Part shown: positions 57,141-64,000 of the stretch, one piece after another | How the letters are laid out: the number at the start of each line of letters is the position of its first letter | Position numbering within the stretch: the stretch's first letter is position 1 | Assembly (NCBI GenBank): GCA_022695795.1 | Contig: MU404062.1 | Location: forward strand, 124,001-188,000 | Source of the DNA: Biscogniauxia marginata | Taxonomy: Eukaryota; Ascomycota; Sordariomycetes; Xylariales; Xylariaceae | Length of the DNA: 64,000 nt | Direction of reading: 5' to 3' | The notes under the pieces: model-generated | Seen by the model: the letters and a program-made list of their open reading frames with translations, nothing else | Databases searched by the model: none | Told to the model about the DNA's origin: nothing | Translations under genes and position numbers: made by a program

Positions 57141-58542
57141 GCGGGAGGGGTGTTTAAGCCACCCATCGACGACGACTGCGATGACTCGCGGGTTCTTGGG
57201 GTCACTACCGACAGCACGCAGGGCTAGCCAAGTCAAGCGTGCGACCTGCGGGAATGTGGTTATATGCAATAGGTATTTGAGGCCTAATCATGAGGAGTTG
57301 GGGTAGAATTGCATTGGGCCTCGGTTGTAGGCTATTGACATCAGCCTATATTGGACGACGGGCTCGGTATTCAATATTGTATGACCGATGATGATGATTT
57401 GTTTTTATGTTATTGGCGTTAGGGAGAGAGGTGCACCAAGCAAGCAGGCAAGCAAAAATGCATCAGGACTCATAATTCATTCTACATATCCTATGTCTCT
57501 GTTCGAAAAGAACAATAAATTCCATTTTCTTTAGCATCTTGAAGCTGTATCCAAGATATCGCCGGTCTGTTGAGCTAATACTGGAATTGCGAAAGTAGCG
57601 GTACTTCTGACTAGTGCGGGTCTACGCAGAAAACCTTCTCAAATCCGCTCGTTCAGCAGGGTTAATACTTGTGGGCTACGAGTTAGTGCCCGGTGCCACA
57701 TCAAGCCAACCCAAGTCAAAAGTCAAGCCACGCCAAGCCACGTCAAGCCACTATTTTCCGTTCTCGGTAGATCGCCAGGGGTTCAATGGCTTCTTCCTTT
57801 CCATGCATCTAACGTTCTTGATGAGCCTCACTAATTCACTAACGCTACCAAGTAGGTATTCGACATTCAATATCAGTGTCTATAGCATACACCATTGCTA
57901 TGGCTTTTTTCTTTTTCCCTTTTCTTTTTTTTATAAACAGCTTTTTCTTGTACTCAATCCTTCCCTGGAAAACCGGTACTTCCAAGCTTTAATCTTTTTC
58001 AAGCCGTATTGAAGCGCCCATGAAGCACGCCTCGGGCAAAGCGTTAAGAAGCCCTCCTTGTCACAAGGATTATCACCTAAAAGCGCCGCCAAGACCAGTT
58101 GGCCACGAGCTTGATATCTACTAGAGATATATACGAGTGCGAGATGCAATGAAACTAACGTGCATAAGAGAACAGCTGCCTCAAGCAAAGAATAACGTGT
58201 ATATATACGCAGAAGATTCCTTAAAGAAGACAAGAGAGAACTTAGACTCTCAAGTCCTTTAAAGCCAAAGAGAATTATTAATTAAAATCGAATCTTAGGT
58301 CCAAGCCCACTAGCCTTATCACAATTACAATATCAAGTCGACATCGACAAGAGTATTTTACAAAGGGAATAATAACACATTAATTAAGTCTCAAAGTAAC
58401 CTCCTTGATATGTCTAATGTCGCATAGCCTCGGGATCTATAATAGTAGCGAATGTCTGATTTATTAATACTATAATTTGTTTCCCACTCTGAAGCAACTA
58501 TTCTCCCCTCCCCCCCTCCTCCCCCCAACGTTCCCGGATATC
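57141..58542. other. Intergenic stretch with short CAAGCCACG repeats
   Basis: 3' region of the copper transporter, then a cluster of imperfect direct repeats of CAAGCCA/CAAGCCACG at about 57699-57752, T-rich tracts near 57905-57940, and a C-rich polypyrimidine tract at about 58502-58527. A 100-codon minus frame at 57931-58233 has a hydrophobic segment but no other support. Confidence 0.4.
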
Positions 58543-59527
58543 TTAATTTTCGTCGCTCTGATATCAATATATTAGTAGCCTACCAATAGACGTTCCAATA
58601 GTCATCAAGTAGATCTTACGTCTTGCACCGTGGTGCTCTCAGCCTCGTCCTCCTGCGACATTGTTAGATATTATTAGATATTATTTGAGACTAGTGCATG
58701 TTATGAAGACTTACGGCCTCTGATTCCTCCAACTCGGCCTAGCAAGTTTTGATCAGACACATGTGTAGATGTATCACAAGTTGGAGATTACTCACGAGAA
58801 TCGCATCTCGGGCAGCCTTCGGATCATCACATGCCAGTTTCTAATCGTGTCATGAGTGTGGTCGGGATCATCGTACATCTGCCCCTGGGGCGTTCTGTTT
58901 CACGATTTATTAGCTAATGCGAAACGAAGCCTGGGATCTCTTCACTAACCTTCGCCTTCTTTCTGTACTCCTGAAAGTCTTTTGTCAGATTTCAAAGATG
59001 TCCAAAACAAAATAAAGTGACATGTACAACTAGCCTTGGCCTTGGCCACATGCTCCTGAATCATAGTTAGCCTGATATTGTAAATTTGCTATCTTCTGAC
59101 ACATACCTTCTCGAGCCTCTCGAAGTGCTGAGTTCGAAAATTGTTAGTAGAGCTATACCGCGCAAAAACAGGACATGTAGGTTCGGTACCTCCTTCTTCT
59201 CCCGGTATTGCTATGTAGAAAGTTAGCATGAAATAATCGCGTGAACGGAAGAGAAATACATACGGTGGCGAGTTCGACATGACTCTGCTGGCACATTAGA
59301 TTCAGGGACATCCGAGTGAGAATTATCATAATTACCTCCACTTTCTCCTCGCACCACTTCCCAGACAGTCCTCAGTAAGAGTCACAATCCCGGAGATTGT
59401 ACAACGTACCTCACGAGTCTCGGGCTGTGAAATAATAATTGTAAGTATGAGAAGGCTAGCGTCTTTGGGATGGTACCTTTAAACGAGGCTTCTTGGCCTC
59501 GGGGCCGGGGGATGGAGACTTGTCCAT
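58543..59527 (-). CDS. Micro-exon gene: small charged helical protein from about 13 tiny in-frame exons
   Basis: Unrecognised family. I read the exons as 59527-59477 (51 nt), 59424-59410 (15), 59356-59336, 59284-59264, 59210-59190, 59127-59107, 59055-59035, 58970-58950 (each 21), 58894-58877 (18), 58840-58796 (45), 58738-58715 (24), 58652-58620 (33) and 58557-58543 (15), about 108 residues. Every exon is a multiple of three and starts in phase 0. Introns are mostly 51-64 nt and most carry clear branch sites (CTAAC, CTGAC, CTAAT) 10-20 nt before the AG. The intron after 59035 is GC-AG. The 18-nt exon implies a 36-nt intron; without it there is one 109-nt intron, and the frame is unchanged. Exon 1 holds a possible nuclear signal (AKKPRLK). 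The 21-nt exons encode heptads such as QYREKKE and HFERLEK. The C-terminus is acidic (EDEAESTTVQD, SDEN). Start ATG at 59527 has A at -3. Probably a nuclear or cytosolic coiled-coil-like protein with alternative isoforms. Confidence 0.82.
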
Positions 59528-60168
59528 CTTAGAGAACTTGGTTTGCGTTGATGTCGGCAAGACTTGGTTGTTGAAGTGCAAGATGCGGGGATTAAGGAGA
59601 GAGGGAAGGGGCCCGGCCGGGTGGTGGGCATTGTCCACGAATATGAGCTTGTTAATCGAGGATTGCTAGCGTGACTTCCCAGCGCGCTTTCGCAGCATAC
59701 TTGGAAGTGTTCTGAAAGCGAAGAAGGTGAAGTGAAGTGCTAACGTGTGGTCAGTAGCAGCCACGAGCTAGAACAGGAAGTGACGACGAGATACACTTGC
59801 TGTTGTGTTTGGTTTGGCAAGAGGCAGGAACGGAGTACCTATGTATTAATGATGGAGGATTAGGGTGTAGATGCCCTCTGAGATGCCCTATTTACCTAAT
59901 GCCCGTAGTGGCCACCAACTAGCCCCACATTACCTCCGTTGTGTGAATCTCCGGGCTGCCCCATACCGATTAGTCAGCCCGACGACTGTATCAGAGAAAG
60001 CTTGTGATTGGTTATTTATTCCATAGGACCTCTCCTCATAGACTTTCCTCGTGCACACATACATATAACATCCTCTCTTTCCCTCCAACGATAGAGCCTC
60101 GGGCATCACCAGCATTTAAATACCAGTCACGCGTGAGGCGACAACCCTCCAGCACGCACGCCCCGGTC
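59528..60168. other. Divergent intergenic region
   Basis: Lies between the micro-exon gene (minus) and the 2EXR gene (plus) and presumably holds both promoters. A minus frame open upstream of 59527 lacks an ATG, so I treat it as 5' leader. Confidence 0.45.
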
Positions 60169-61157
60169 ATGGCTACAGAAACGTTTCACCCCTTCGGGAG
60201 ACTGCCTCCGGAACTGCGAGATCAAATTTGGGACCTGGCAACGCTGCCACTGTCACGGGACCATCGACCTGCAGCTCATTTTTTTTTACTCTTGCCAACA
60301 TGAAAGAAGATCGCCCGATGATCTCACTCAAGGACACCATCTGTCATAGTCGCACAGAAATGTATTGCTTAGCGGCCCCGCAGTGTAGTGGACCGGGGAA
60401 AATGTCATGGACAGAGTCAAATCCTTCAGCATATCTATCAGAGATCGGCCTATGGGGGGCTTGTAAAGAGTCTCGACGGCGAGTTCAGAATTACCGAAAT
60501 TCACTCAGCTGGGACGATTAGCTCTCGGTGGCCGTCGATTATTACCTGTCTGACAATTATGACGAGCTCGATCGACTCCCAGCCCTGGTGACATTCTGTT
60601 GTGATGGGCAGAATCAGAACTTTACCATTTATCCCAACTCGGACCTCTTGTGTATCCAGCCATTTAACTTCGATACGATCAGATGGCCCGAAGTTGATCG
60701 TACGACGCCAACGGTCATCGGAGGATACACGGTACGCCATATGGCTCTGGAGTTTGACCCGACATGGGGCAGCCCTTCAAGTAGTGTACCACCTTGCTTT
60801 GACGAGACGGGACCGCTTCGGTGCATTGCAACAGCGGCCTCATTTGACACATATTGGATCAAAAATCTTTGGTTCATTGACTACCGGATTCGTCGGCGAT
60901 CGGGATCGACTCTAAACGAAAAAAGACACGTATTTTATGCCAATTCATGCAGATACGTCGAGGTCAAAGAGACCGATACGGACTGGGAACTCGCTACTGA
61001 ACCCGATATCTTCGAGTTTCTGTTTGACCTGGACGAATCACTGGAGGAGTACTTCGCCGATAATTTTTTGTCGAGGGATGAATCTCCAGTCCTTCGATGC
61101 CCCCGGTGGAGCCAGCCAGAGATTCGAGTTCTAGCCTGCGAGGTATCAAATGAATAA
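60169..61157 (+). pseudogene. 2EXR-domain protein, broken by a T-run frameshift and an in-frame TAG
   Basis: The opening METATETFHPFGRLPPELRDQIWDLA-type segment (start ATG at 60169; core FGRLPPELRDQIWDLA) is the signature of the fungal 2EXR domain, an F-box-like module of unknown function common in large ascomycete families. The reading frame is broken twice. A nine-T run at 60279-60287 shifts the frame (homology resumes as TLANMKEDRPMISLKD), and an in-frame TAG at 60519-60521 separates YRNSLSWDD from VAVDYYLSDNYDELDRL. After that the frame is open to 61157, with typical features such as FDTIRWPE and CRYVEVKETD. The protein would be about 329 residues if both breaks were mended. Either a pseudogene, or a sequencing slip in the T-run plus a suppressible or edited TAG. 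Confidence 0.7.
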
Positions 61158-61958: not shown

Positions 61959-64000
61959 TCACTTAAGATTCAGTAGTCCCCAGGCATGCATAAAGTGCCG
62001 TTCTCTGAGGCTCCTTCGATATCGCGGGTACACGACGGCTGGCTGAAAGCAATCCTTTAGTAGTACGTCTACATACCGCATAATTAGGTTTTCCGTATCC
62101 TGGCTCATGTGTCTCCTTTCCCGGCCTATGTGTTCTGCTTCCCGCATATGGTCTCCCCAGAAATTAATCGCATAATTCAGAAAAGGAAAGGTATCTTGAT
62201 CAAATGGCAGCGGCTCAGGTGACTGAAGGAAGTAGCCCCTCAAAAAAGCATAACTAATATGCACATCTAATGTGGATTTATACAATGTATAAGTTAGGCA
62301 CTTTTTTGCGATCAATTCGTGTCCCGTCCCGAGGAGAGACGGTCCAGAAGAATCAAGAAACTCTTGCAGGGTAAAATGCATAAAATTAACGGTCTGATCT
62401 TGTCCCACGGTCGTGACAAGGCCTAAGCAGTTCGTTATGACATTCTCGGAGACTATGTCATCAGCGTCTAGGTCCTCCGACCCAACCCCTGTCGAGACAG
62501 CGTGGCGAAGCTCGGTCAATGTCAAGGGACGTTGGGCTAAGTGGACCCATGCCAGTATCTCGAGGGCTTGATCAGCTTTAGCTTTACTTTGCTCCCGTAT
62601 TCTCGAGATCGTATTCTCGTATGCGACTCCGACGTTTTCTAACAGACCGTCAAGGGCCTTGCGTCTCTTCGTGATCGTAGGTTGGCTGAGAACGTTGGCA
62701 ATGTGAAGAGCCGGTAATAGAAACCTGTTATACTATGTCAGAATGGATACAACGAATCATTGTAACGAAATATTTGGGTTACCTACATTCCGCTGGATGA
62801 AGCAATTATTCGCTCGATGATCTCCGACTTGAGGCTATCATTCATAAGTCCTGGTTCTTGCTCTTCGTCCTGAGTTATTTGGAACTCGAGGAAAGCTCTG
62901 ATATCGCTCTCGTCGGCTACAATCTCGGTAAGTGAAGGTATTTCCAAGACCGACCGGATGTTAGGCTCGACGTGTTTTCGGGCCGTGATCAGGATCTTGG
63001 CCTTTGTCAACTGCTTGACGACTTTCAGGATAGAGATAGACTCGCAACACTCGTCGAGTGCATCGATACAAATATAGACAGAGTCAAAGCCGAGCATGAT
63101 GTCTTTCATATGAGCCAAGGTCTCCTCCATCGTAAGCCGCTTCGAATTATTTCTTGAAGTTTGATCGAGCGAAGGGGGAATCCTATTTGAACAAGCTAAC
63201 ATTTGTCTGAGTAAAGCTCGAGCGATGTCTACCGATTTTTGGTCTTCTTTCTGTGCATAATCGAAATATATGTAACATACTGCCACCTTTTCGTCGTGGG
63301 AATATCGGGAGAAGAGGTCGTCTATCACCGCGGAGCTGCTTTTATGAGCCTGAAGTATCTGCCCAATTGGGTCGTAGACTTACCAAAACACAGATTTTCC
63401 AGCACCTGGGTTTCCCAGGCAGCATAACACGTGTTGACTAGTGCCGCCGGTAGATAGCCAGTCGTCGACTTCGTTGGACCTCAGCATCTTCTTGCAAGAT
63501 CCCGGTAATCGTTTCAAAGTGACACTCTCATGTTTCTTCCCGAAATCAGCAGGTGAGATCCAGTTCAAGACCTCTCGAAGATGTTGGCCTACGATATTGT
63601 CAACAACTAAGAACATCATCCTCTTCCTACTAGTTATTCCTTATCGTCAAAAGTCTCGTGCAGACTACGCAGAGATGTGGCTATCTCGTCCACATCAATC
63701 GAAATGACACATTGCACATCTTTAACTTGCTTCAGGGTATCGTTGAGCTGTCCGGTAAGAGAACCGGTCAACTTTGAGACTGACTCCAAAGCGCTTTCTT
63801 GCTGCTTTAGATATTGCAGCAATTCTTTATGATTTTTTGCCAGGACCTCGCTATGAACAAATCAGCAAGTTAAGCAAGTCACAGGAAATAATGATGATTC
63901 ACCTATCATCAATTACTACGAAGAAGTGGAACGTCTGCACACACAGCGACAATGAGGGGCAGATATATTGAGCTTCCTCCTTTCGGAAAGGCCAACGCAG
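61959..64000 (-). CDS. NACHT NTPase (fungal NLR-like), 5' end beyond the window
   Basis: Fungal STAND/NLR-type receptor of the kind linked to non-self recognition and heterokaryon incompatibility. Pieces read: 64000-63903 (N-terminal LRWPFRKEEAQY, typical of the helical N-terminal domain of this group), intron 63851-63902, a coiled region (KNHKELLQYLKQQESALESV), then WISPADFGKKH. Walker A GNPGAGKS is at 63392-63415 and is followed by a 48-nt intron (63336-63383). The NACHT core continues with Walker B (VYICIDALDEC, about 63045-63080) and a sensor-like ILITARKH. A 62-nt intron (62725-62786) leads to FLLPALHIANVL and the winged-helix region (LEILAWVHLAQRPLTLTELR). The frame between about 63620 and 63660 does not join cleanly: either an 80-nt intron with a weak GTAGTC donor or a one-base loss. 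An in-frame TGA at 61959 removes the repeat domain. Confidence 0.8.

Follow-up and report, generated by a model that had tools for sequence, protein, structure and literature searches.

Genes built as arrays of micro-exons have been described in animals (parasitic worms and aphids). The introns of schistosome genes are long, and the bicycle genes of aphids are marked by a cysteine motif. Fibrillar collagen genes, too, have repeated phase-0 exons, each as long as a whole number of protein repeats; there, exons of 54 nt encode Gly-X-Y triplets and lie between longer introns. In schistosome micro-exon genes (MEGs), the coding region consists mostly of very small symmetrical exons, which can be skipped without loss of the reading frame; the products carry a signal peptide and seem to be limited to platyhelminths (PMC4350168). 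Aphid bicycle genes form a family of putative effectors and have many small internal exons, almost all of them in phase 2; in most genomes, it is described as rare for a gene to have many exons of similar size and a single phase (PMC9168663). According to a 2024 paper (PMC11121469), a few fungal genes had been predicted to contain micro-exons, and tests had been confined to Schizosaccharomyces pombe; functional micro-exons were undescribed in filamentous fungi before the single case reported there, one regulated micro-exon in the transcription factor Xlr2 of Trichoderma virens.

A predicted micro-exon array is found on the minus strand of Biscogniauxia marginata, at positions 59527-58543 of the window (the whole stretch of 64,000 nt that was analysed). 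Thirteen phase-0 exons are separated by 12 short introns of 51-64 nt (Table 1); the intron borders are GT-AG, with one GC-AG. The joined frame is open from the ATG at 59527 to the TAA at 58543, and every junction falls between codons. The initial annotation had described these exons, introns, phases and frame, and a check of the sequence confirms them, with one amendment to exon 10.

As in T. virens and S. pombe, these are micro-exons in an ascomycete; in contrast to the single micro-exon of Xlr2, they form an array. The locus shares very small symmetrical exons with schistosome MEGs, but its introns are short and no signal peptide is seen by eye. It resembles aphid bicycle genes in having many small internal exons of one phase, which here is phase 0. 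Unlike the bicycle genes, it is not part of a visible family: a search of the whole locus against its own genome (45.3 Mb, 229 contigs; E<=0.001) gives one match. The protein contains a single cysteine and so does not fit the bicycle motif, and it is unrelated to collagen. Such arrays had been considered unfamiliar from filamentous ascomycetes; in agreement with this, none is found among the open-access literature matches listed, and a term search of the main text of a paper on twin introns in related families (PMC12403724) finds neither genus.

Table 1. Exons and compared introns of the B. marginata micro-exon locus (positions in the window; P0121 is the Durotheca rogersii homologue)
Feature	Positions	Strand	Length (nt)	Residues	Remarks
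Exon 1	59477..59527	-	51	MDKSPSPGPEAKKPRLK	KKPRLK resembles a nuclear signal; weak donor GTACCA
Intron 1	59425..59476	-	52		Durotheca model reads through; 15/15 compared residues identical
Exon 2	59410..59424	-	15	PETRE	P0121 has PETKE
Exon 3	59336..59356	-	21	WCEEKVE	Weak acceptor GGGAAG; supported by the P0121 join PETKE-WYEEKIE
Intron 3	59285..59335	-	51		Open, multiple of three; 13/17 residues common to the Durotheca read-through
Exon 4	59264..59284	-	21	SHVELAT	Trained model starts at ATG 59296, with the same 3' border
Exon 5	59190..59210	-	21	QYREKKE	
Intron 5	59128..59189	-	62		12/18 residues common to the Durotheca read-through
Exon 6	59107..59127	-	21	HFERLEK	
Exon 7	59035..59055	-	21	EHVAKAK	GC donor next; P0121 peptide identical
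Exon 8	58950..58970	-	21	EYRKKAK	P0121 peptide identical
Exon 9	58877..58894	-	18	NAPGAD	Missing from the Durotheca model, possibly optional
Exon 10 (amended)	58796..58816	-	21	AARDAIL	Outside the unprompted path
Exon 11	58715..58738	-	24	AELEESEA	
Exon 12	58620..58652	-	33	EDEAESTTVQD	5-residue in-frame insertion in P0121
Exon 13	58543..58557	-	15 (incl. TAA)	SDEN	No counterpart in P0121

The exon lengths first proposed hold for all exons but exon 10, which had been drawn at 58840-58796 (45 nt). This requires an intron 9 of 36 nt, while the shortest intron used to train the gene model is 47 nt. With CCGAAG as acceptor, intron 9 has 60 nt and exon 10 has 21 nt (58816-58796), in which four of the seven residues (AARDAIL) match TGRNAIL of Durotheca; the amended chain scores 29.7 in the gene model at one intron per 30 nt, compared with 28.4 for the earlier one. 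The amended lengths are, from 5' to 3', 51, 15, six times 21, 18, 21, 24, 33 and 15 nt; as a result, seven rather than six exons have exactly 21 nt. All 11 internal exons are in phase 0 and have 15-33 nt. Since each consists of whole codons, omission of any of them keeps the frame, as had been claimed.

In ordinary genes of this genome, 28 of 60 introns are in phase 0; on this basis, 12 phase-0 introns out of 12 have a probability of about 1e-4. Four introns have lengths that are multiples of three, and three of these contain an in-frame stop; intron 3 contains none. In B. marginata, neither intron 1 nor intron 5 has a length divisible by three. No repeats of at least 14 nt occur within 58400-59700; this and the genome search with the whole locus do not bear out an origin of the introns from introners or repeats.

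The start of a 2EXR-family gene is found at about 60169-60303 on the plus strand, in divergent orientation and at a distance of about 640 bases from the start of the micro-exon gene. Further on, at 61959-63379, the minus strand carries pieces of an NLR-like gene, with NPHP3_N at 62783-63379 and a GPIID winged-helix match at 61959-62732.

The gene model describes codon use, donor, branch, acceptor and intron length, with 264 kb of the same genome as training sequence. Its last training round used 50 introns, each lying between exons of 60 nt or more; consequently, micro-exons took no part in the training. At one intron per 30 nt, the unprompted best path through the locus contains eight introns, all in phase 0, and scores 32.2. 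Six of the eight are identical to introns 4, 5, 6, 7, 11 and 12. The fifth and sixth introns of the path have one border each in common with those of Table 1, and a 54-nt exon between them replaces exons 9 and 10. At one intron per 50 nt, all eight introns of the path lie on the borders of the array alone (seven exactly) and exon 10 is skipped; at one per 100 nt, there are seven introns and exons 7 and 10 are skipped. Exon 9 enters the path at these two rates only, and exon 10, in either drawing, is absent from it at all four rate settings. The path search discarded introns scoring below -3; thus, not all chains were weighed.

Coding log-odds are positive for all 13 exons. In the 264 kb, six chains of at least five introns are found at one intron per 30 nt; this locus is the densest (10.6 introns per kb, compared with 7.0 for the next), and no other has a median exon length of 21 nt. 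Elsewhere in the genome, there is no clear excess of 21-nt exons between strong splice sites; the pattern has 67 matches genome-wide compared with 52 for the reversed-pattern control, some of them overlapping.

Chance was assessed on both strands of 92.4 Mb (31.7 + 60.7 Mb) of sequence shuffled locally, by a first-order Markov procedure within blocks of 5 kb; not all features of real non-coding DNA are reproduced in this way. This null yields 82 chains (34 + 48) of at least six introns, with a top score of 14.24. The exception is one five-intron chain of mostly long exons, which scores 27.88. None of 148 null chains with at least five introns is in phase 0 throughout (one of the two shuffle runs).

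A sole homologue is found in Durotheca rogersii: P0121 (GGS23DRAFT_611808) has 268 residues and matches at E 2.3e-6 in 5.8 billion proteins. For this search a neutral tail brought the query to 194 residues, of which residues 1-108 were scored; this admits proteins of about 107-340 residues, and of 30 candidates P0121 alone has E<=10. The joined 108-residue protein, searched against proteins of about 59-190 residues, gives ten candidates, none at E<=1. The order of peptides in P0121 is PETKE-WYEEKIE, THVKLAT-KFYEKKE and HFEKLQK-EHVAKAK-EYRKKAK-TGRNAIL-AELESSEA-EGEAE. They are contiguous, with no gain or loss, at introns 2, 4, 6, 7, 10 and 11, and exon 8 is joined directly to exon 10; contiguity at these junctions fits either splicing in Durotheca or introns that were never present there. 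The sole length difference among the exons compared is, by eye, an in-frame insertion of 15 nt in exon 12.

P0121 is a chimeric and messy gene model, with read-through introns and an apparently fused neighbour. Where exon 13 would be expected, it runs on into a stretch whose only match found in B. marginata lies on another contig, C4 (E 0.008; 47% over 45 residues), so the downstream flank looks non-syntenic. The counterpart on C4 is a 179-residue ORF (L024:1075-1614) without a Pfam match. At the other end, the Durotheca sequence aligns over the 3' part of exon 1 in another frame. Homology fades within this exon; sequence 5' of this is at the random level, though the P0121 model may splice there. 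In the region of the start codon, 8 of 14 sites differ, which is also the random level.

No annotated B. marginata protein matching this gene was found at about 59-340 residues. In the annotated Xylariales genomes, including that of B. marginata, the gene is unannotated, absent, too diverged or annotated outside this size range. By comparison, the neighbouring copper transporter matches 177 proteins at E<=0.001 and, of the 120 listed, many are named for Xylariales. Searches with P0121 against viral and prokaryote contigs give 5 and 41 pattern matches, respectively, none of which is confirmed.

These results bear on two explanations that would remove or shorten the array. An alignment of splice-like motifs by chance in non-coding DNA would fit several weak sites and a negative score: with introns at their ordinary rate (about one per 1000 nt), the score is -13.5 for the full chain, below -4 for each of introns 1, 2, 3, 5, 7 and 9, and +4.3 for a path of eight introns through the locus. 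The shuffled null is far lower for chains of at least six introns, however, and the Durotheca peptides run contiguously across predicted junctions; chance alignment is very improbable. Exons 1-3 depend on weak splice sites, and the true gene could be shorter, with ten exons and a start at ATG 59296; exons 1-3 would then be a leader or mis-assigned. The unprompted path starts at this ATG and omits exons 1-3 at all four rate settings, and the chain scores 33.0 with this start compared with 29.7. Against this, the peptides of exons 2 and 3 are found in P0121, where they are joined across the weak intron 2, and the shorter gene is considered unlikely. On sequence grounds, a real micro-exon gene is by far the most likely explanation, as suggested by splice signals, phases, lengths, statistical excess, and the peptides and junctions common to Durotheca. 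The initial annotation had read the locus in this way; the unprompted path, the shuffled null and the one junction-sharing homologue lend support to that reading.

The introns themselves can be compared in part. An intron is visible in a protein only if it is read through and hence stop-free in Durotheca, which leaves introns 1, 3 and 5. The read-through residues match B. marginata intron DNA (counts in Table 1); the sequence of these introns is therefore present in both species. By eye, the P0121 residues would allow a GT donor, a branch-like site and an AG acceptor at the places where B. marginata has them, and introns 1 and 5 seem to differ in length from Durotheca by 16 and 1 nt, respectively. 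The sites compared are the first and second positions of Durotheca codons. B. marginata and Durotheca differ at 9 of 100 informative sites in the introns and at 17 of 124 in exons 2-8, 10 and 11 (p 0.30); the exon figure becomes 25 of 174 once exon 12 and the exon 1 stretch, which takes in the initial bases of intron 1, are added. The median for unrelated placements within the locus is about 70-75% of sites differing. Exons are no more conserved than introns and thus show no trace of purifying selection at the level of the protein itself. This conservation of introns was unforeseen in the initial annotation. It points either to recent movement between lineages or to constraint on the introns, both of which are compatible with a micro-exon gene.

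Recent sharing of the segment by horizontal transfer or introgression, possibly followed by decay, has close to an even chance of being correct. Exons and introns would diverge alike because little time had elapsed and protein constraint was weak or absent. The copper transporters of B. marginata and D. rogersii are only 66% identical, and at such a protein distance introns normally fail to align; the low divergence of introns 1, 3 and 5 relative to random placements, the apparently non-syntenic match of the fused downstream part of the Durotheca model and the one match of the locus in its own genome all fit transfer. Divergence is uneven, however (intron 1 differs at 0 of 30 sites, exon 5 at 4 of 14 and exon 1 at 6 of 28), and the comparison involves two species whose relatives' annotation may miss such genes. 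The sequence surrounding vertebrate micro-exons is conserved, and introns that act in splicing regulation, or in an intron-retention product, would likewise conserve the whole transcript. That the three compared introns are as conserved as the exons agrees with this, and intron 3, which is open and in frame in both species, would fit such a function; its length in B. marginata is divisible by three and P0121 reads through it, so that its retention would add 17 in-frame residues. Introns 1 and 5 do not have this property in B. marginata, Rfam gives two matches at 57500-60600, both under the curated cut-off, and the same data are explained by recent transfer; functional introns are a serious possibility, though one that falls short of an even chance. 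The apparently non-syntenic downstream neighbour and the lack of added constraint on exons slightly favour transfer over function.

The locus is probably a real, unannotated coding gene of about 100 residues, with 12 short introns, phase-0 micro-exons and seven heptad exons of an apparent charged alpha-helix; we infer that it is transcribed and spliced. The amended protein has 100 residues. A head with KKPRLK is followed by an E/K-rich middle of 47 residues (13 basic and 12 acidic) and an acidic tail of 36 residues (13 acidic and 1 basic). No signal peptide is seen by eye; the first residues, MDKSPSPGPEAKKPRLK, are charged and without a hydrophobic core. Together with the E/K-rich middle and the acidic tail, this makes plausible the earlier suggestion that the protein is intracellular rather than secreted. 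The best guess is a small charged-helix protein built from heptad exons, perhaps nuclear.

The database searches assign this protein to no family. The best Pfam match of the joined protein has 12.8 bits compared with a cut-off of 27, and P0121 has no Pfam match at E<=10; the single PDB match (E 2.4) is not meaningful. The AlphaFold model of P0121 has a very low mean pLDDT (34.6), with a helix at residues 148-182, which correspond to exons 6, 7, 8, 10 and most of 11. The seven-residue exons are alike in register beyond shuffles (p 0.001), though a register shifted by one residue scores equally; this likeness is compatible with exon duplication or with a plain heptad helix.

The seven 21-nt exons would each supply seven residues of an E/K-rich alpha-helix between a proline/lysine-rich head and the acidic tail. 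If one such exon were left out, the helix would lose about two turns but keep its heptad register. Exon skipping is possible in principle, and the sole hint of it is the absence of exon 9 from the Durotheca model. A further and rather doubtful proposal is that splicing sets the length of a modular helix: each 21-nt micro-exon would be one heptad, regulated splicing would hold the introns as constant as the exons, and the products could form a ladder of helix lengths, all in frame and in register.

In fungi, splice-site recognition is believed to span the intron, taken as a short unit; exons of 15-24 nt should therefore be tolerable. If the gene is real, an array of 21-nt exons between introns of 50-65 nt would show how small exons can get when the intron is the unit of recognition. 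The conserved introns raise a sharp question of transfer versus function. The locus may also be a sign that the annotation of fungal genomes overlooks some genes.
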